A stretch of DNA of 64,000 nucleotides from Pelagibacterium flavum (GTDB lineage: Bacteria > Pseudomonadota > Alphaproteobacteria > Rhizobiales > Devosiaceae): the NCBI RefSeq assembly GCF_025854335.1, contig NZ_CP107716.1, positions 2,845,001-2,909,000 of the forward strand, written 5' to 3'. This document shows positions 10,182 through 50,717 of this stretch, piece after piece. The notes under the pieces are model-generated. The model worked only from the letters and a program-made list of their open reading frames with translations, did no database searches and was not told the origin of the DNA. The stretch's first letter is position 1; each line of letters starts with the position of its first letter. Both the position numbers and the translations under genes were made by a program.

Positions 10182-11471
10182 ATGCAATTTCTCAAGTCTT
10201 TTGGTTTATCGTTTTTTATCCTTGCTGGAGCTGCCATTTGGTTGGGCACGGGCACGCTGGTTATGGGCGGCCAGGGTCCTGGAAACGGCGAGCATTCCAT
10301 TGTCGGTCTCATCGAAGGCGATGATCACGGCCCCATTTCAACAGCGCTGGCCGAGGCCGGCGTCCTCCCCGAGCATTCCCCAGAGACAGTCGAGCAGGCA
10401 CGTATGACCGTTGCCGAGCGTGTGGCTCAGGCAAACGGGGGACCTGGCGCATCTGTATCGGTACGCACGCAAACGTTTGAACGCCAACAGATGCCGATTG
10501 AAGTCACATTGCGTGGCCGCACGACGGCTGCGGCCAATGTTGCGGCAGTCGCCGAAACGGCGGCCGTCGTGGAGACCGTCCATGTCGAAAAGGGCGACCA
10601 GGTAGAAGCTGGTGATCTTTTGTGTTCACTTGCACCCGGCACACGCGCCGCGGCTGTTGCACAGGCCGAGGCCGCTCTTGCACAGGCCGAGGCAGGACTT
10701 GCTCAGGCTCAACTCGATCTGGAAACCAACACTTCGTTGCGCGAGCGTGGTCTGGCTCCAGCCAATACCGCCAATTCAGTTCAGGTCGCTCTGGCCGCCG
10801 CCGAAGCTCAAGTTTCCTCGGCCCAGGCCGCGCTTGACAATGCGAGGGCCGAACTGGATCGGACGGAAATCGTTGCCGAGGTGTCCGGATTGGTTCAGGC
10901 CCCTATCGCCACCCGCGGTTCAATGCTCTCTCAGGGCAGCGTTTGCGCGACGATCGTTCAGCTCGATCCAATCGTCTTCTCGGGCTCGGTTGCTGAAGCC
11001 AACATCACGCTGGCCCGCACCGGGCTTCCCGCCACGCTGCACACGGTGACCAATCAGGACGCCACCGGTGAGGTGACTTACGTGGCAGCCAGTGCCGACG
11101 ATGCAACACGTTCTTTCCCCGTCGAAATCGAATTTGCCAATCCCGATTTTTCGATCCGGGAAGGCGTTACGGCCACCGCTACGGTCAATATGGGATCGAT
11201 GCCGGGGCATCTTCTGCCCCAGTCGGTGCTCACGTTGAACGATGAAGGTGTACTAGGCGTACGGGCCGTTCAAGACGGCATTGTCGCTTTTTACCCTGTG
11301 ACGATCGTTTCGGATACCAGAGAGGGAGTATGGGTAACCGGGCTTCCTCAATCTGTCGACATCATCACCATCGGCCAGGAATTTGTGATTGAAGGACAGT
11401 CGGTGCAGGCCGGGCAGGAAGCTGTTTCGGATGATGCCACTGAGACCTCTGAAGAAGGTGCACCTGCATGA
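10182..11471 (+). CDS. RND efflux periplasmic adaptor subunit (membrane fusion protein)
   Basis: Links the inner-membrane RND pump to an outer-membrane channel. The 429-residue protein has an N-terminal hydrophobic anchor (LSFFILAGAAIWLGTGTLVM region, residues 8-30), a lipoyl-like half before and after a heptad-rich helical hairpin (Ala/Gln/Glu-rich, about residues 155-225), and a beta-barrel C-terminal part. ATG 10182 was chosen; an in-frame start at 10116 lies inside padR. The stop overlaps the pump start by 4 bases. The outer-membrane partner is not encoded next to it. Confidence 0.9.
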   Translation: MQFLKSFGLSFFILAGAAIWLGTGTLVMGGQGPGNGEHSIVGLIEGDDHGPISTALAEAGVLPEHSPETVEQARMTVAERVAQANGGPGASVSVRTQTFERQQMPIEVTLRGRTTAAANVAAVAETAAVVETVHVEKGDQVEAGDLLCSLAPGTRAAAVAQAEAALAQAEAGLAQAQLDLETNTSLRERGLAPANTANSVQVALAAAEAQVSSAQAALDNARAELDRTEIVAEVSGLVQAPIATRGSMLSQGSVCATIVQLDPIVFSGSVAEANITLARTGLPATLHTVTNQDATGEVTYVAASADDATRSFPVEIEFANPDFSIREGVTATATVNMGSMPGHLLPQSVLTLNDEGVLGVRAVQDGIVAFYPVTIVSDTREGVWVTGLPQSVDIITIGQEFVIEGQSVQAGQEAVSDDATETSEEGAPA

Positions 11472-43019: not shown

Positions 43020-43643
43020 ATGACTGCGACAAGCAGGTTCTGGGACAAGACTGCGGACAAATACGCGCGTCTGCCGATAACCCACGAAGACGACTACGAG
43101 ACAAAGCTCCGGGTCACGCAGGGCTATCTGCGGCCCGACATGCGCTTGCTCGAATTCGGTTGCGGGACCGGCGGAACAGCGATTGCGCACGCCCCTCACG
43201 TTGCTCATATCCTGGCGATCGATTTTTCCGAACGCATGCTCGAGAAAGCGCGCCAGCGTGCTCATGAGGCCGAGGTTACCAACATAACTTTCGAGCGCGC
43301 CGACATCACCACTTTGCCACTCCCCGACCAACCCTACGACATGGTGCTCGGTTTGAGCATTCTGCATCTGCTCAAAGATCCCGATGCCGTCATCGCCAGA
43401 GTCTATCGCATGCTCAGGCCGGGGGGATATTTCGTCTCAAGTACGGCATGTCTGGGGGATACCATGGGCTATTTCAAGGTGTTAGCACCTATCGGACGCG
43501 CGCTGGGCCTGCTGCCGATCCTTAAGGTCATGAGCACCGACGAGGTGATCGCCAAGATCAAGCGACCCGGTTTCGAGATCGCCCATCGTTGGAAACCCGG
43601 CCCAGACCGGGCGCTGTTCGTGGTGGCGCGCAAGCCGGGGTGA
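43020..43643 (+). CDS. Class I SAM-dependent methyltransferase
   Basis: 207-residue methyltransferase of the Methyltransf_11/25 group. Motif I is LLEFGCGTGGTAIAH near residue 42, motif II ends LAIDFSERML, and motif III-IV is YDMVLGLSILHLL. Such proteins methylate small molecules or lipids; no specific substrate can be named. It stands between divergent LysR and convergent dusA. Confidence 0.88.
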   Translation: MTATSRFWDKTADKYARLPITHEDDYETKLRVTQGYLRPDMRLLEFGCGTGGTAIAHAPHVAHILAIDFSERMLEKARQRAHEAEVTNITFERADITTLPLPDQPYDMVLGLSILHLLKDPDAVIARVYRMLRPGGYFVSSTACLGDTMGYFKVLAPIGRALGLLPILKVMSTDEVIAKIKRPGFEIAHRWKPGPDRALFVVARKPG

Positions 43644-43649
43644 TAGCGC

Positions 43650-44675
43650 TCAGGCGACGCGAACCGCCGCCTGATCGATCTGGGCAAAAGCTGCAGCGAT
43701 CACTTCGGGCCCTGCGCCAGGCTTGCAGGCTTCGACACTCAGAATCTGCCGGAAACGCCGCGCACCGGGCAGTCCGTTGGCCAGGCCGAGCATGTGGCGG
43801 GTGATCTGGTTGAGGCGCGTGCCCTTGCCCAACTCGACTTCCGCATAGGCGGTCATGGCGGTCTCGATGTCATCGAGTGTTACCGCAGCGCGCTCCTCGC
43901 CGAATATTTTTTCGTCAGTGACGCCCAAAATCATCGGATCGTGATATGCGGCGCGACCGAGCATGACGCCGTCGGTATGCTGAAGGTGAGTTTCACACTC
44001 CTCGAGCGATTTGATGCCACCGTTTATCATCACGGGAAAATCGCCAAGGCGCTGTTTCAGCCGATACACCCGATCGTAGTTCAGGGGCGGTATGTCCCTG
44101 TTTTCCTTGGGTGAAAGCCCCTTGAGCCAGGCTTTGCGCGCATGAACGTAGAGTGCGTCTATGCCAGTCGGAACCACCGCATCAACGAAGCGATCGAGGT
44201 CGGCCTCGATGTCCTGTTCGTCGATCCCGATGCGGCATTTGACGGTGATCGGGGTGTCGGTCGCCTCGGCCATGCCCAATAGACACTGGGCCACCAACCC
44301 CGGTACGCCCATTAGACATGCTCCGAACTGTCCAGATTGAACCCGGTCGGACGGGCAGCCGACATTGAGGTTGATTTCGTCATAGCCGAACCGATCGCAA
44401 ATCCGGACGGCCTGAGCCAATTCGAGCGGATCGGACCCACCCAGTTGCACCGCCACCGGATGCTCGCTGTCATTGTACCCCAGCAGCCGTTCGGCATCCC
44501 CATGCACCAGCGCCGCACTGGTGACCATTTCGGTGAACAAGAGCGCATGCGAGGTCAACTGCCGGTGAAGATAGCGGCAGTGCCGATCTGTCCAGTCCAT
44601 CATGGGCGCGATAGAAAATCTGCGACCCTCAGAAAGCATAGCTTTTGCGCTTTTTTCAATATATTCCAGCGACAT
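43650..44675 (-). CDS. dusA: tRNA-dihydrouridine(20/20a) synthase
   Basis: FMN enzyme reducing U20/U20a in the tRNA D-loop, 341 residues from ATG 44675. Landmarks: FSIAPMMDWTDRHCRY, YNDSEHPVAVQLGG, NLNVGCPSDRVQSGQFGACLM with the catalytic Cys, and VHARKAWLKG. Residues 1-21 lie on the element side of attL (44590-44612), so the integrated element supplies this copy's start codon and promoter while restoring a full reading frame. ATG 44639 (MLSEGRRF) is a possible alternative start. dusA is a known integration site for genomic islands. Confidence 0.94.
   Translation of the reverse strand: MSLEYIEKSAKAMLSEGRRFSIAPMMDWTDRHCRYLHRQLTSHALLFTEMVTSAALVHGDAERLLGYNDSEHPVAVQLGGSDPLELAQAVRICDRFGYDEINLNVGCPSDRVQSGQFGACLMGVPGLVAQCLLGMAEATDTPITVKCRIGIDEQDIEADLDRFVDAVVPTGIDALYVHARKAWLKGLSPKENRDIPPLNYDRVYRLKQRLGDFPVMINGGIKSLEECETHLQHTDGVMLGRAAYHDPMILGVTDEKIFGEERAAVTLDDIETAMTAYAEVELGKGTRLNQITRHMLGLANGLPGARRFRQILSVEACKPGAGPEVIAAAFAQIDQAAVRVA
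44590..44612. repeat. attL: 23-bp core direct repeat within dusA
   Basis: Begins GTCCAGTCCATCATGGG and ends CGCGAT; identical to 48157-48179. On the minus strand it encodes the dusA residues IAPMMDW, a conserved stretch, which explains why integration here preserves the protein. Confidence 0.85.
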
Positions 44676-44730
44676 GGGGCTTGCTCGTTTCTGTCGTTTT
44701 TTGCTCGTTTATGATCGTGTTTGACCGTTT

Positions 44731-44778
44731 TGTCGTACCCAGTACAACAATGTCGTACTGAAAAGGAGAATGTCGTAC
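44731..44778 (+). repeat. Three direct repeats TGTCGTAC at 20-bp spacing (candidate integrase arm sites)
   Basis: TGTCGTAC occurs at 44731-44738, 44751-44758 and 44771-44778, each starting exactly 20 bases after the last. A partial inverted copy (GTACAACA) sits between the first two. The third ends one base before the integrase ATG. The same octamer, inverted, recurs at the other end of the element (48102-48121). Tyrosine integrases bind arm-type repeats flanking the core, and such sites can also repress the integrase promoter. Confidence 0.6.
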
Positions 44779-44779
44779 C

Positions 44780-45856
44780 ATGGGCACTATAGTAGAGCGC
44801 AAGCGCAGGAACGGCTCAACCGGCTACACCGCTCAAATCTTGATAAAACGCGGGGGCAAGATCGTCTACCGCCAAGCCCAAACCTTCGACCGCAAACAGG
44901 CGGCAAATGCATGGATCAAAAAGCGGGAAACCGAACTAGCCGAACCCGGCGCAATCGAACGGGAGAATGCCCCCAAGGGCACTCTTGCCGATGCAATAGA
45001 TAAGTACACCGAAACCTCGGCCAAGGCCATCGGCAAGACCAAGGAACAAGTTTTGCGTTCTATCAAAGGCTACCCTATTGCCGAATTGGGATGTGACGCA
45101 ATTCGGTCGGATGACATTGTAGCGTTTGGACGCGAACTTCACCAGAAGATGCAACCCCAAACGGTCGGAAACTACATGTCCCATCTGGCGGCGATCTTTG
45201 CCATTGCCCGGCCTGCATGGGGCTACCCGTTGGACCCGCAAGCCATGAAGGACGCCAGCGCAGTGATGCGTCGGTTAGGCTACACGTCGAAATCAAAGAA
45301 GCGCGAGCGGCGGCCCACATTGGCCGAACTCGACAAGCTCATGACAGCGTTCAAGGCCAAACGAGCGTTTCGCCCGAATTCAAACCCGATGACTCATATC
45401 GTCGCGTTCGCCTTGTTTTCGACCAGACGACAAGAGGAAATCACGCGGATCAAATGGGCCGATCTGGACGAAACCAAGAGCCGCATACTGGTGCGCGATA
45501 TGAAGCACCCCGGCGATAAGATGGGCAACGACACTTGGGTTAATCTACCGCCCGAAGCGATGGCTATTATCAAAGCCATGCCGCGCGTGCAGGAACGTAT
45601 TTTTCCTCATGGCACAGACGCAATTTCGGCTGCATTCACGCGCACGTGCCAGGACCTTGAGATTGACGACCTGCGGTTCCACGATTTGCGCCACGAAGGC
45701 GCATCCCGGCTCTTTGAAATGGGCTGGCAGATACCAAACGTCGCCGCAGTTACTGGCCATCGCACTTGGGCGAGCCTGCAACGATACACCCATCTCGATC
45801 AGGCGGGCGATAAATACGAAAATTGGCCTTGGTTTGAATTTGTGACCAGCGCCTAA
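44780..45856 (+). CDS. Site-specific tyrosine integrase of the dusA element
   Basis: 358-residue phage-type tyrosine recombinase. The N-terminal part resembles an arm-binding and SAM-like core-binding region (residues 1-170). The catalytic domain contains ALFSTRRQEEITRIKW with the first Arg near residue 213, HDLRHEGASRLFEMG near 298, and GHRTWASLQRYTHLD with the second His and the nucleophile Tyr near 335. All catalytic residues are visible, so it is probably active. ATG 44780 has AAAAGGAGA 10 bases upstream. It lies next to dusA, transcribed away from it, as in other dusA elements. Confidence 0.93.
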   Translation: MGTIVERKRRNGSTGYTAQILIKRGGKIVYRQAQTFDRKQAANAWIKKRETELAEPGAIERENAPKGTLADAIDKYTETSAKAIGKTKEQVLRSIKGYPIAELGCDAIRSDDIVAFGRELHQKMQPQTVGNYMSHLAAIFAIARPAWGYPLDPQAMKDASAVMRRLGYTSKSKKRERRPTLAELDKLMTAFKAKRAFRPNSNPMTHIVAFALFSTRRQEEITRIKWADLDETKSRILVRDMKHPGDKMGNDTWVNLPPEAMAIIKAMPRVQERIFPHGTDAISAAFTRTCQDLEIDDLRFHDLRHEGASRLFEMGWQIPNVAAVTGHRTWASLQRYTHLDQAGDKYENWPWFEFVTSA

Positions 45857-45953
45857 CCCAGCGTCGGGGCTCCCGGCGCTCTAAATAGCCGCTCCAATGG
45901 TGGGGTGGTCGAACCTAAAATGAATAGCCCCGAGTTTCGTGGACACCCTCGGG

Positions 45954-46814
45954 TTAGTTTTCCTGCTGTCGTTCGAACTCGACGGGTGACAGCATCCCGT
46001 TCCGGACGTGCTTTCGTTTTGGGTTGTAGAACATTTCGATGTAGTCGAACACGTCCTGCCTTGCCTCTTGGCGTGTTCGATAGGTTCTGCGCCGTATCCG
46101 CTCACGCTTGAGCAGATTGAAGAAGCTTTCTGCCACAGCGTTGTCGTGGCAATTCCCCCGTCGGCTCATTGAATGCTCAAGATTGTGATGCTTGAGAAAT
46201 GCTGCCCAGTCCATGCTGGTGAACTGGGAACCCTGGTCGGAATGAATCAGGACCTTGTTCTTGGGCTTTCGACGCCACACTGCCATGAGCAAAGCCTGCA
46301 ACACGACGTCGGTTGTCTGGCGGCTGTGCATTGACCAGCCGATGACACGACGTGAGAACAGGTCGATGACAACGGCCAGATAGGCAAAGCCTTCCTGGGT
46401 TCTGATGTAGGTGATGTCGGTCACCCACGCCCTGTCTGGAGCCTCCACATCGAACTGGCGGGCCAAGGTATTGTCGACCACGATCGAGGGCCTGCCGCCA
46501 TAGGAGCCGGGCCGTCGCTTGTAGCCGATCTGCGCCTTGATCCCGGCAAGCCTCGCAAGACGAGCAATGCGGTTGGCACAACTGGTCTCTCCCTGATCGA
46601 GAAGGTCGTCATGGAGCTTGCGGTAGCCATAGACCCTGCCGCTTTCCTTCCAGGCATTGCTGATGAGCTCCGTCTGACGTGCATCTTCCAACGCCCGCTT
46701 GCTCAGCGGATTCTTCAGCCACGCGTAGAAACCGCTGGGTCGGATGCGCAGGCAACGGCACATTGCCCGAACCGTGAACTGCTGGCGATGCTCGGCAATG
46801 AACGCGTATCTCAC
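45954..46814 (-). CDS. IS3-family transposase, catalytic subunit (OrfB)
   Basis: 286-residue DDE integrase-type protein. HTH_21 region near the N-terminus (ESGRVYGYRKLHDDL), then catalytic Asp in AWVTDITYIRT, second Asp in LIHSDQGSQF, and Glu in NAVAESFFNLLKRE. GTG 46814 overlaps the orfA stop, but functional transposase is expected from -1 frameshifting in the A run of orfA: from that point the orfB frame is open with no stop. Expressed alone, OrfB would not be the active form. Confidence 0.93.
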   Translation of the reverse strand: MRYAFIAEHRQQFTVRAMCRCLRIRPSGFYAWLKNPLSKRALEDARQTELISNAWKESGRVYGYRKLHDDLLDQGETSCANRIARLARLAGIKAQIGYKRRPGSYGGRPSIVVDNTLARQFDVEAPDRAWVTDITYIRTQEGFAYLAVVIDLFSRRVIGWSMHSRQTTDVVLQALLMAVWRRKPKNKVLIHSDQGSQFTSMDWAAFLKHHNLEHSMSRRGNCHDNAVAESFFNLLKRERIRRRTYRTRQEARQDVFDYIEMFYNPKRKHVRNGMLSPVEFERQQEN

Positions 46815-47086
46815 TTTGCATCCTTGGCGAAATACGCGGTGGCTTTTTTTAAGATGTCGCGCTCCTCGGTGACGCGCGCCAGTTCCTTCTTCAGTCGCCG
46901 GATCTCTGCTGTTTGATCCACATCGTCCGATCCCGAGGGCTTAGAGAACTTCTTTTTCCAAGCATAGAGCGAATGCGGGCTCACGCCGAGACGCTTCGAA
47001 ACCTCCGCAACGGGGTATCCCCGCTCGGTAATCTGCGCGACCGCATCACGCTTGAACTCATCACTGAAATTGCCAGACCGCATCAT
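46811..47086 (-). CDS. IS3-family transposase, DNA-binding subunit (OrfA)
   Basis: 91-residue protein with an HTH_Tnp_1-type helix-turn-helix (DEFKRDAVAQITERG and VAEVSKRLGVSPHSLYAWKKK) and a C-terminal leucine-zipper-like helix (AEIRRLKKELARVTEERDIL). A run of seven A (codons TTA AAA AAA GCC) near its 3' end is the expected slippery site for making the OrfAB fusion. Confidence 0.92.
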   Translation of the reverse strand: MMRSGNFSDEFKRDAVAQITERGYPVAEVSKRLGVSPHSLYAWKKKFSKPSGSDDVDQTAEIRRLKKELARVTEERDILKKATAYFAKDAK

Positions 47087-47286
47087 GGCCTCCTTGCCTC
47101 AAATTTAGGGAAGAAGGCGTCCAGAAATCTAGGGGCTATTCAGACGGCGAATGGCGCGTGGTCGCCAACGGCATTGAAACCGTTCAAATTGAGGAAACCC
47201 CTGCCGGGGCGAAATTGGTTCTGGAAAAGAGCGATGGCGGGCGCGTTCAACAGAATCTGACCTTCGCTAAGCACTGAGGCCGCGCG

Positions 47287-47628
47287 ATGAAACCTAAGAA
47301 TGAGAAATTGGGAACGCACGCGACCCAGTGGCGCTGGGCTTATCTCGACAAGCGATTTTATATGAAACGCGACCCTGAAATTGCAGTATCGCGCCTAATG
47401 TTCAATCAATCCTATTTCCTCTGGGAATGCCCTGACGAAGCCGATCCGGCAAGCGTGATCGAAGGCCGCTTTGAATTGCAGATTGAGCGCCGTGGTTTTT
47501 ATCCTGACAAACCGGCTGGCATGATCACGGTTGAGGGCCAGCGAGTCCTGAACGTGCCGATCACGCGGGCCGAACGGAATAAGAAGCTTTGGGAAGCGCG
47601 GCGGGAGAAGGTGGCGAAGGCGGCCTAA
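47287..47628 (+). CDS. Hypothetical protein of the dusA element, 113 residues
   Basis: Unrecognised soluble protein, rich in charged and aromatic residues, with no signal peptide or membrane segment. The middle (FNQSYFLWECPDEADPASV) has a single Cys, and the C-terminus is a basic helix (AERNKKLWEARREKVAKAA). It begins 9 bases after the disrupted small ORF and probably shared a transcript with it. No motif supports a function. Confidence 0.7.
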   Translation: MKPKNEKLGTHATQWRWAYLDKRFYMKRDPEIAVSRLMFNQSYFLWECPDEADPASVIEGRFELQIERRGFYPDKPAGMITVEGQRVLNVPITRAERNKKLWEARREKVAKAA

Positions 47629-47672
47629 TAGGGCTGTCCAGTAGCATTAAATTCTCAAAAATCACTTTCAGA

Positions 47673-47722
47673 TTGACATTATCGGATTATTTTGCTATGT
47701 AGATGGCATATTTTGCTACATA
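47673..47722 (+). promoter_or_regulatory. Promoter with overlapping inverted repeat ahead of the PrtN-like gene
   Basis: TTGACA (47673-47678), a 17-base spacer and TATGTA (47696-47701) form a good sigma-70 promoter in an AT-rich stretch. TATGTAG (47696-47702), covering the -10 box, is repeated inverted as CTACATA at 47716-47722. The two arms sit in a near direct repeat (TATTTTGCTA followed by TGTAG or CATAA). A repressor bound here would block RNA polymerase. The regulator is not identified within the element. Confidence 0.6.
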
Positions 47723-47764
47723 ATAGGCAAAAAGGAGTAAAAATTAGAAAAAGGAATTTTTAGG

Positions 47765-47815
47765 ATGCGTATTTTGGATTTTTCCGCCCGCGTTCGGGCA
47801 GGGCTTCTTGACTGA
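47765..47815 (+). CDS. Possible 16-residue leader peptide overlapping the PrtN-like start
   Basis: ATG 47765, preceded by AAAAAGGAA, opens MRILDFSARVRAGLLD and stops at TGA 47813-47815, eight bases into the TTG-started PrtN-like gene in another frame. The overlap would let translation of the leader couple to the weak TTG start. It may instead be a chance frame. Confidence 0.35.
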   Translation: MRILDFSARVRAGLLD

Positions 47816-48092
47816 AGCATCGAACGACAACCACAGCACAATCGCCATTTTGTTGGCGCAATACGGCCAGCGCGTCGTGATCCCGGTCGAACAGGTTTGT
47901 CGAGATTATTTTAGCCATCTGGACCCTGCCAAATTCGTCCGCAAGGTGAATGAGGGCGCAATTGCTATTCCTATGATGCGAGTGGAGGCCAGCCAAAAAA
48001 GCGCTAAAGGCATTCACGTAGCAGACCTTGCCGAATGGCTCGACGCACGGCGGGAAGCAGCGCGCAAAGAATGCAGACAGCTAGCCGCCTAG
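47808..48092 (+). CDS. PrtN-family transcriptional activator (pyocin activator protein family)
   Basis: 94-residue protein matching the PrtN pattern: TIAILLAQYGQRVVIPVEQVCRDYFSHL, then DPAKFVRKVNEGAIAIPMMR, then KGIHVADLAEWLDARREAARKE. PrtN activates pyocin genes in Pseudomonas, and small homologues occur in many prophages and islands. TTG 47808 is the only suitable start and has AGGG just upstream. It is the last gene before attR, so any target is outside the element or its own integrase/excision genes. Role here is inferred. Confidence 0.83.
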   Translation: MTEASNDNHSTIAILLAQYGQRVVIPVEQVCRDYFSHLDPAKFVRKVNEGAIAIPMMRVEASQKSAKGIHVADLAEWLDARREAARKECRQLAA

Positions 48093-48101
48093 TCCAATTC
48101 G

Positions 48102-48121
48102 GTACGACGAGAAGTACGACA
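48102..48121 (-). repeat. Two inverted copies of the TGTCGTAC arm-site motif near attR
   Basis: GTACGACG (48102-48109, 7 of 8 matching) and GTACGACA (48114-48121) are the reverse complement of the octamer repeated three times beside the integrase, 36 bases from attR. In a circular form they would lie on the opposite side of the core from the left-end copies. Confidence 0.55.
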
Positions 48122-48156
48122 CAACCCACAAAGCGCCTGCGATTCGGGCACGATCC

Positions 48157-48179
48157 GTCCAGTCCATCATGGGCGCGAT
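48157..48179. repeat. attR: 23-bp core direct repeat
   Basis: Identical to the dusA copy at 44590-44612. Beyond it, the minus strand still reads EFSIAPMMDW in the dusA frame, but an in-frame TAG lies 13 codons upstream with no ATG, GTG or TTG between, so no functional dusA start remains there. Confidence 0.85.
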
Positions 48180-48453
48180 GGAGAATTCTCTATTTTTTCG
48201 GTCACCTACAGATATTTCCTAAATCATACCGAGATCGGGCCGACCGACATTGCGGTCCTTCGTAATAAATATGCCTTTCACCACCCGATTTTTCAAAGTG
48301 TTACCATCTCAATGTAAGCTTGGGTGCGCCGATAAAGTTCAGATATGGGCGATCAGGCCTCCCCAACCAAATCCCGAAAAAATCCTGCTTAGCCAAATGG
48401 CTAGCGAAGTTCTGCCTGGTGCGATGCTCTGTTGGATCCCTGTGGGAAGCGCA
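48180..48453. other. AT-richer non-coding stretch beyond attR
   Basis: 274 bases that look lower in GC than the flanking chromosome. I find no convincing gene or RNA. It may be the displaced original upstream region of dusA or the edge of an older insertion. Confidence 0.4.
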
Positions 48454-49752
48454 CTAGGCCGGAACGGCACGAGCCAGTGACTGACCCGCCGGGATGGTCG
48501 GCGATGCGGCGTTGAGCTGCTCGACGGCAAATCCCGCTGCTGACTTGTATTTGGCCATGAACGCGCTGCGTTCGTGGGATGGAATGACGTCTTCGATGTC
48601 CTCGAATACGCCGCCGCACCGCTCGTCGACAATGTTGAGCAGTCCGAACGGTCCGGCGCTGCGGTTGCGCAGGATGACCTGGGAAATCGGGCCGCAAAGC
48701 TTTTCATTGTAGGCGGCCAGCGCGGCCGGGGTGATGCCTTTTTCGAGCATGGCGGCACCGAGCACGCGAGCGTCGACGATCGCCTGGCTGGCGCCATTCG
48801 AGCCGGTTGGGTACATGGCATGCGCGGCGTCGCCCATCAGTATCACCGGCCCGTCCTGCCATGTATCGACCGGATCGCGGTCGATCATGGGGTTCTCATA
48901 GGCGATGTCGGCGCGGCTCAACAGGTCCGGCACGTCCAGCCAGTCATAGCGCCAGTCGGCGAAATGGTCGATGAACTCTTCGACAGCGGTGGGCCGGAAC
49001 CAGCCGCTGTTCGTCCAGTCCCCGCCGGTCTCAACGGTTCGCTCGGCGATCCAGTTGATGGTGGCAAGCCCGGTTTCAGGATCGACCGGGGAGATGGGAT
49101 AAAAAACCAGCCTGTGCCGGTGCGTGCCCAGCCCCACGAAGGATGAGCCGGTGCGGATCGGCTTGGCCTTTGTGGTGCCGCGCCACATGATGGCGCCGCC
49201 CCAGTTGATGGGAGGCTGATCGGGGTGCATCTGGGCGCGGATTTGAGAGTGGATGCCATCGGCGCCGACAAGCAGCGTGCCCGTCTCTTGCGCCGTATGG
49301 CCGTCCGCGAGACGGATTTGCGCGCTAACGGTGCCGTCGGAAGCGTGCTCGTAGCCGGTCACCCTGTGGCCGAGCTTGACGCAGCCGGGCCCGGCGCGCT
49401 CGACGAGCTTGTTGTAGAGCAGCATGTGCAGGCGGCCGCGATGGGCCGAATATTGCGGCCAGCTGTAACCGGCCAATAGTCCGCGCGGCTCGGAATAGAT
49501 GTCGTTGCCGTTGAGCCCGACCAGCGCCCATTCCCTGGATGGCACGCCGATCGTATCGAGATCGTCAGGGCCGATGCCGAGGTCATAGAGCTCGCGGACC
49601 GCGTTGGGCTGGAGATTGATCCCCACCCCCAGCGGAGCGAGTTCGCGTGCGGACTCAAATACGGTGAATTTTACGCCGATCTGATGAAGCGTCAGCGCCA
49701 TGGCCAGACCGCCAATGCCGCCGCCGGCGATGAGTACGCGAGGTTCGGTCAC
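48454..49752 (-). CDS. Flavin-dependent oxidoreductase (FAD monooxygenase, UbiH/salicylate hydroxylase-like)
   Basis: 432-residue class A flavoprotein. FAD-binding motif VLIAGGGIGGLAMALTLHQ near the start, the GADGIHSQIRAQ block (DG motif) near residue 165, and the second FAD motif LMGDAAHAMYPTGSNGASQA near residue 300. All three standard motifs are intact. Such enzymes hydroxylate aromatic or related ring compounds with NAD(P)H. The DUF3237 gene lies 90 bases upstream on the same strand, a pairing seen in aromatic-degradation regions. Substrate unknown. Confidence 0.88.
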   Translation of the reverse strand: MTEPRVLIAGGGIGGLAMALTLHQIGVKFTVFESARELAPLGVGINLQPNAVRELYDLGIGPDDLDTIGVPSREWALVGLNGNDIYSEPRGLLAGYSWPQYSAHRGRLHMLLYNKLVERAGPGCVKLGHRVTGYEHASDGTVSAQIRLADGHTAQETGTLLVGADGIHSQIRAQMHPDQPPINWGGAIMWRGTTKAKPIRTGSSFVGLGTHRHRLVFYPISPVDPETGLATINWIAERTVETGGDWTNSGWFRPTAVEEFIDHFADWRYDWLDVPDLLSRADIAYENPMIDRDPVDTWQDGPVILMGDAAHAMYPTGSNGASQAIVDARVLGAAMLEKGITPAALAAYNEKLCGPISQVILRNRSAGPFGLLNIVDERCGGVFEDIEDVIPSHERSAFMAKYKSAAGFAVEQLNAASPTIPAGQSLARAVPA

Positions 49753-49842
49753 TGATTTCCCCTATCTCTTTTTCGCGGAAACTAGCCAATTGCGGCGGCA
49801 GTGTCCAACCCGCCGGCCCGCTCGAGCGGCGATCTTCCGTTG

Positions 49843-50310
49843 TCAGTCGATGGCGTAAAGATCGATCTGAACGGCATTGGCCAGCCGCGCACCGGTGCCC
49901 ACGAACATGGTCTTGTTGATCCATGCGTAATCTGGATGGCCGGTCTCGAGCCGGGCACCGCTTCGCATGTAATAGGATTGCGGTGGGCAGGCTTCTCCCG
50001 CCGCCAGCCTTTGGATCACGTCCTCGGGGCCGTGCCGGATGCCGAAGTTGCGTATCTCGATTACCGCACCGTCATCGGTTTCGAAGGCGTAGCGCGCATC
50101 GAGTTCGGCAATGCCTCCCTCCAGGATCATCTGCCAATCGGCGCCCATGTCGAGAATGCGGCCGGAAATCTTCGGTCCATGCACGCGCCCACCCTTGATG
50201 GGTATGACCCGCTTTGTGCCGGCGGCGGACGGTCCCACGCTCACGGGCTTGGAGAGATGGACCTCGAGGGTACAGAAATAGCTAAGGCCGGGGGTAGGAA
50301 GAGAGGTCAA
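49843..50310 (-). CDS. DUF3237-domain protein
   Basis: 155-residue beta-barrel-like protein. Family signs: LSYFCTLEVHLSKPVSVG, then GGRVHGPKISGRILDMGADWQ, and YAFETDDGAVIEIRNFGIRHG. TTG 50310 is chosen because the family begins here; the frame to 50445 adds an Arg-rich leader. DUF3237 has no proven activity but often neighbours aromatic or steroid catabolism genes. It probably forms a unit with the flavoprotein gene downstream. Confidence 0.82.
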   Translation of the reverse strand: MTSLPTPGLSYFCTLEVHLSKPVSVGPSAAGTKRVIPIKGGRVHGPKISGRILDMGADWQMILEGGIAELDARYAFETDDGAVIEIRNFGIRHGPEDVIQRLAAGEACPPQSYYMRSGARLETGHPDYAWINKTMFVGTGARLANAVQIDLYAID

Positions 50311-50717
50311 TATTGGCTCGTCGATGTGGTTGGCGCCGGAAAGCCATAGCCTGACCAGCCGCGAATATCCACCGCCGTTCGTGCGATGGGACCTGCCGCT
50401 CAACGTTCCACGCCAGCGTTCTGATCCCGGCGGTCCTGGTGTCAAAGCGCTCGCTCTTTAGTCGTCGTCGAATTATTTCGCGATCCTCCGACCGGCAGGG
50501 CGATGGCGCCCGCGGTAAGGACGGTGGCCAGCATCGCCATGTTGTGAAGGTATTTGGGCAAGGGCTCCACATCGCCAAGAAGCGGGAAATAGGCAAAGGC
50601 ATTGCGCCCATGAAGGGCGTCGTCCGCCATTTTGTATATGTGGTGCACAAGGGGCTTGCTTCAAGACCCTCGCCTCGTCGTAAACGACTTGCCCCTGACA
50701 CTATGTGAGGCTGAGAA
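50311..50717. other. Intergenic stretch, possible degraded gene
   Basis: 407 bases between divergent DUF3237 and an FAD monooxygenase. A 68-codon minus-strand frame (50442-50648, GTG start; ATG at 50630) would give a protein with HGRNAFAYFPLLGDVEPL and a hydrophobic stretch (NMAMLATVLTAGAIALPVGG). It lacks a good ribosome-binding site and I recognise no family. It could be a small membrane protein or a remnant. Confidence 0.35.

Follow-up and report, generated by a model that had tools for sequence, protein, structure and literature searches.

A 3.6-kb element at dusA in Pelagibacterium flavum is very probably the collapsed remnant of a capsid-forming satellite

We analysed a 64,000-nucleotide stretch of the Pelagibacterium flavum genome (contig NZ_CP107716.1, positions 2,845,001 to 2,909,000; hereafter the window, with coordinates counted from its first letter), in which a compact element lies between two direct repeats at the 5′ end of dusA (44590-48179). 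Comparison with related elements indicates that it is very probably the remnant of a capsid-forming phage satellite of dusA, about 10.5 kb in size and collapsed at an insertion sequence (IS), that has kept its integrase (Int), both att sites and a probable RdfN. The remnant is a clear case of decay and does not represent a novel type of minimal element. An earlier note on this DNA had offered a minimal satellite or a decaying remnant: the remnant part holds and a satellite origin seems right, while the idea of a minimal element falls, as the sequences on the two sides of the IS match places 8.1 kb apart in a satellite of a related genome, G008.

Results

The IS joins two parts of a satellite core

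The IS (45921..47142, minus strand) is 1222 bp long and belongs to the IS3 family (NF033516, 344 bits), with open reading frames (ORFs) at 46811-47086 and 45954-46814 and inverted arms that are 80% alike over 30 nt. IS3 elements have a two-ORF DDE transposase and inverted ends and produce a target duplication of 3-4 bp. To its left, a 71-bp stub of satellite core runs from the int stop codon up to the IS (45850..45920, plus strand); to its right stands a gene cut by the IS, of which the C-terminal 44 codons and the stop codon are left (47143..47277, plus strand; 93% over 44 amino acids to the end of a G008 gene). When the uncut window was compared with G008 by BLAST, 45850-45924 matched C1:922146-922220 (87%, E 3.5e-20 to 6.6e-18) and 47143-47624 matched C1:930365-930844 (82%). 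The right match begins precisely after the IS and the left one extends 4 bases into it, which is within chance. In G008, the stub ends at 922216 and 930365 are separated by 8148 bp that hold the primase-like, HNH, capsid and portal genes. With a block of this length in place of the IS, the element would measure about 10.5 kb (3567-1222+8148).

The absence of structural genes, already reported in the earlier note and borne out by the proteins of 44590-48179 tested, is thus explained: the part that carries them in the relatives is missing at the IS. Since none of these proteins was recognised as a capsid or packaging protein, we claim membership among the capsid-forming phage-inducible chromosomal islands (cfPICIs) for the putative ancestor only. 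The IS occurs in the host genome as six full-length copies, all identical and including that of the window, and as one partial copy. Four of the six full-length copies are flanked by a target duplication of 3-4 bp; the window copy and the copy at locus L049 are not.

From 45857 to 45920 (L056:10153-10216 in the G008 locus) the left stub is mostly non-coding, has a GC-rich, hairpin-like start and is 87% alike in the two elements, which have different integrases; it is possibly a regulatory or replication site. A known structured RNA in the stub was rejected: Rfam on 43500-49000 gave a single match, to the ALIL pseudoknot inside the IS (46741-46838, minus strand), which is below threshold (21.2 bits against 50), lies at the overlap of the two IS3 ORFs and is consistent with programmed frameshifting. 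A scan for promoters and terminators performed no better than it did on shuffled sequences.

Right of the cut gene lies an intact gene for a 113-amino-acid protein (47287..47628, plus strand; 85% identity in G008). The two small proteins of unknown nature in the earlier note are therefore one whole protein and one 44-codon fragment of the gene cut by the IS. For the whole protein, a word-based search of 5.8 billion proteins gave four matches, itself included, and among 397 genomes of the order and 385 of the class it occurs in its own genome and in G008, with one weak further match in G593 (27%, E 2.6e-4) that we take as chance. Searches of viral contigs and phage records gave no relatives, and assignment to an established family, of defence proteins, phage proteins or any other sort, was rejected for want of a match in PADLOC, Pfam, PHROG or NCBIfam.

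Related satellites carry capsid, portal and replication genes

The G008 element spans 11.6 kb (L056:8023-19701) and lies between two copies of a 48-bp repeat, from the tRNA-Gln end, at 920023 and 931628. Among the proteins that it encodes are a different integrase, an HTH_17 protein that we take to be AlpA-like, a DUF7007 protein, a 729-amino-acid primase-like protein, an HNH protein, the major capsid protein and, after it, the portal protein; the homologue of the gene cut in the window and then the 113-amino-acid protein follow the portal gene. The primase has no relatives in the viral contigs, and neither a terminase nor a tail family was recognised among the ORFs tested. Related capsid, portal and primase genes, again with capsid ahead of portal, occur in two other genomes of the same bacterial family, in an element of about 8.6 kb from int to the last ORF (G833, L101:7961-16600) and on a 7.7-kb contig (G822, L102:1-7669). 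Both have a candidate terminase small subunit (phrog_12559; E 1.3e-8 in G833 and 0.004 in G822), and both are, like G008, devoid of tail families among the ORFs tested.

A search of viral contigs with the PrtN-domain protein of the window gave 154 relatives, of which the best 80 were analysed. Among these 80, an integrase relative is present in 69, part of dusA in 37, an att-like site (at most 5 mismatches) in 41 and a relative of the G008 portal gene in two, L103 and L104. This pair also ranks highest by PrtN match among the fetched loci and has the nearest integrases (68% over 341 amino acids in L103, 65% over 296 in L104). Between int and att, in about 10.4 kb, both encode a primase/helicase, an HNH protein, a terminase large subunit, and capsid, portal and head-closure proteins, and L104 additionally has a head maturation protease and a head-tail adaptor. 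The PrtN gene comes next, followed by an att-like site at 10370 (2 mismatches in L103, 1 in L104). PHROG searches of 8 and 10 ORFs, respectively, recognised no tail family (3 of the 18 ORFs had no match at all), and the 113-amino-acid gene was not found in either contig. Their full size, extrapolated because both contigs begin within int, is about 10.6-10.8 kb. L103 and L104 thus hold the gene set that defines cfPICIs (integrase, replication, terminase, capsid, portal and connector, without tail) beside a dusA-type att site, and their gene content and size fit the ancestor that we propose.

The element is inserted at dusA

The repeat reported earlier, inside dusA and again 3.6 kb away, consists of two exact 23-bp copies, at 44590-44612 and 48157-48179 (3567 bp start to start), within a 36-nt match at 92%. 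They are the sole copies in the window at up to 6 mismatches, and by our own arithmetic about 1e-7 exact 23-mer pairs are expected by chance in 3.6 kb. Copy 1 lies in the 5′ part of dusA (43650..44675, minus strand; tRNA-dihydrouridine synthase A; Pfam Dus 1.4e-79, NCBIfam DusA 6.4e-149), over the codons for the stretch IAPMMDWTD. The dusA codons upstream of it are supplied by the element: the segment 44613..44779 holds the new, in-frame dusA 5′ end, with its start codon at 44675, and the divergent region between dusA and int. In a survey of 94 dusA islands (Farrugia 2015, PMC4482086), the islands are described as replacing the dusA 5′ end, with att repeats of 21-28 bp and sizes of 4758 bp to 184,808 bp. 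At 3.6 kb, or 2345 bp once the IS is subtracted (3567-1222), the element is below this reported range, in agreement with the note's remark on its size and its estimate of about 2.4 kb without the IS.

The earlier note had suggested looking for an empty dusA site in relatives, and two genomes have one. In G008 (L037) and G009 (L036), dusA is uninterrupted and continues into the DNA that the window has past att copy 2 (48150-48315; 86% DNA identity to G009, 80% to G008), and the fetched regions contain a single att-like site (at most 6 mismatches), at dusA. A third genome, G061, assigned by the tool to the same species as the window, is identical to it on the left over 4326 bases up to 44602 and on the right from 48159 to 50500, where the query ended; past both junctions a different dusA island begins, which encodes a 389-amino-acid integrase and is spread across two contigs. 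This junction pair narrows the exchange to an 11-bp part of the repeat. The empty sites, together with the other island that G061 has at these two junctions, support an integrative element inserted at dusA, as the earlier note had proposed.

The G061 island (L034:4385-19001, L100:1-17540) is much larger and has many ORFs that look metabolic, named by eye. In the genus, dusA was matched in 12 of 13 genomes, and a related integrase adjoins it in five of the 12 (G000, G007, G010, G005 and G061); these integrases are distant (27-34%) except that of G007 (62%). Past 48316 the region to the right of dusA is variable: G000, G008 and G009 are unlike one another there, with a FAD monooxygenase in the window and other genes elsewhere.

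Integrase and probable excision factor

The dusA-type tyrosine integrase next to the dusA 5′ end (44780..45856, plus strand; 358 amino acids; PF00589) looks intact, as first noted: it has no stops and aligns over residues 1-357 with the 62% G007 relative, which adjoins dusA too. Its motifs TRRQEE (215), MKHPG (241), HDLRH (301), TGHRTW (325) and QRYTH (334) are those that we take to be catalytic. DNA matches to dusA stand beside the integrases of loci L028-L033 as well.

The last gene before att copy 2 encodes the PrtN-domain protein (47808..48092, plus strand; PF11112, 2e-27). The earlier note had called it a PrtN-like activator. The domain is confirmed; a role as a pyocin-type activator was rejected, since the protein matches a PHROG excisionase family (phrog_1300, 1.4e-30) and has relatives of 61-62% identity at the same place in L103 and L104, and RdfN fits better. 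RdfN is the published PrtN-domain protein required for excision of a dusA element (PLoS Genet 2021, PMC8409611), and according to that account an int-carrying mini-element between att sites was excised only when RdfN was supplied. In the island survey, prtN is given as present in 60 of the 94 islands (PMC4482086). Judged by its domain match and position, the protein of the window is most likely RdfN, which would act as excision directionality factor.

Cassette exchange and the dusA start

The stretch homologous to the G008 satellite starts 4 bases short of the int stop codon and runs at most 5 bases past that of the 113-amino-acid gene. The genes int and rdfN are described as placed across attP, and exchange in the circular form has been proposed for other elements (PMC8409611). 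These limits suggest that rdfN, attP and int, as one continuous cassette in the circular form, were probably exchanged between satellites.

Past att copy 2 lies the displaced older dusA 5′ end with its upstream DNA (48180..48315, minus strand), which is 100% identical in G061 and has no usual start codon in frame. When the flanks were joined in silico, no in-frame ATG, GTG or TTG was present upstream of the methionine pair of the PMM motif in dusA; in G008 and G009, an ATG or GTG stands 14 codons ahead of the reference codon. The sequence indicates that the displaced end has decayed and that excision would probably leave a shortened DusA. Because the rejoined dusA would lack a usual initiation codon, the remnant appears to be fixed in place.

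The flank shared with these two genomes reaches, in the window, as far as the start codon of an older prtN gene. In G008 and G009 themselves it is followed, just upstream of dusA, by a broken prtN gene (L037:12525-12765 and L036:5400-5600; 44-50% identity to that of the window). The broken genes were probably left behind by an earlier dusA element, and since the shared flank ends at a prtN start, the dusA start that preceded the present one was probably itself derived from a still older element.

Discussion

The ancestor would have been a capsid-forming satellite of about 10.5 kb with the order int, replication gene, HNH, capsid/portal, 113-amino-acid gene, rdfN, and would presumably have depended on a helper phage. 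Recombination catalysed by Int at the site of about 23 bp would have placed it at the dusA 5′ end, its own start replacing that of dusA. An IS3-family element would later have inserted into the satellite, and an IS-associated deletion, either adjacent to the IS or by recombination between two IS copies, would have taken about 8 kb with the replication, capsid and portal genes. Excision of the remnant may still be possible, in principle as a circle, though its own replication and packaging genes are gone.

Several observations weigh against this account. An intact dusA-located copy with the same 113-amino-acid gene was not found, and for this reason the ancestor is a composite, of G008, which has a different integrase and a tRNA-Gln site, and of L103 and L104, which have the same ends and a different core and begin within int, so that their left att lies outside the contigs. 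The left stub is 71 bp long, and the L049 copy of the IS is also without target duplication, which makes this sign weak when taken alone. Moreover, satellite core genes gave no match at 11 loci with integrases of 53-63% identity (L028-L033 on genome contigs and L059-L063 on viral contigs, reaching about 8-10 kb beyond int) or in the G007 island (35 kb beyond dusA), and we conclude from these loci that this type of integrase mostly serves cargo other than the satellite core.

Derivation from an ordinary full-length prophage is unlikely. Prophages account for 48 of the 94 surveyed dusA islands (PMC4482086), and the G008 capsid protein has relatives in 149 phage records, at least one of them with tail genes; however, the G008 element, to which both stubs match, measures 11.6 kb and L103 and L104 cover int to att in about 10.4 kb, without a tail gene among the ORFs tested in any of them. 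It is quite unlikely that a satellite was reduced earlier by another route, such as recombination in module exchange, and that the IS inserted only afterwards, at the scar or close to it: the G008 homology limits at the int and 113-amino-acid gene stop codons do indicate that cassette exchange probably occurred, but the homology extends up to the IS from either side, and the target duplication expected for an independent later insertion is absent (as it is at L049). Highly unlikely is a naturally minimal element of Int, RdfN and one or two small genes that was complete before the IS entered, which would account for the open frames in int, the 113-amino-acid gene and the PrtN-domain gene and accords with the finding that Int, RdfN and att sites were enough for excision in the mini-integrative element (mini-IE) experiment (PMC8409611), but which we rejected because the gene right of the IS is reduced to its last 44 codons and the IS borders match G008 sequences 8.1 kb apart; no such short copy was noticed among the fetched loci either, in which no dedicated search was made.

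With an IS-collapsed satellite as the preferred explanation, a tiny and puzzling island is resolved into ordered events with defined breakpoints, and dusA-type integration and a PrtN/RdfN-like excision factor are tied to capsid-forming satellites. The titles and abstract openings of the literature searched, which left out most subscription journals, report no capsid-forming satellite at dusA. The decayed displaced dusA start further hints at a route by which such elements could become fixed. We tentatively suggest that the dusA start could act as a one-way ratchet, in which incoming elements supply a start and the displaced one decays, so that the site can be altered only by swapping elements; the remnant would then be kept since dusA depends on it, with a working Int-RdfN-att cassette open to other satellites. 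If this is true, excision would cost the cell a proper DusA.

cfPICIs are satellites that are induced and transferred by a helper phage. L103 and L104 resemble published cfPICIs (as described in PMC11389934) in their size of about 10-11 kb and their int, replication, HNH, terminase, capsid, portal and head-closure genes, and G008 is similar, although no large terminase was recognised among its ORFs tested; the element of the window, in contrast, has lost these genes. With the dusA-specific integrative elements, as these are described in PMC4482086 and PMC8409611, it shares an integrase divergent from dusA, a new 5′ end, a similar att length and a PrtN-domain RdfN. It differs from the surveyed islands in its size of 3.6 kb (2.3 kb without the IS), below that reported for all 94 (PMC4482086), and in a cargo of one whole 113-amino-acid gene and a gene fragment. 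It comes close to the laboratory mini-IE of PMC8409611, which likewise has little except int between attL and attR; unlike that construct, it is natural, has no added marker, carries a probable rdfN on board and stands beside a displaced dusA start that has decayed.

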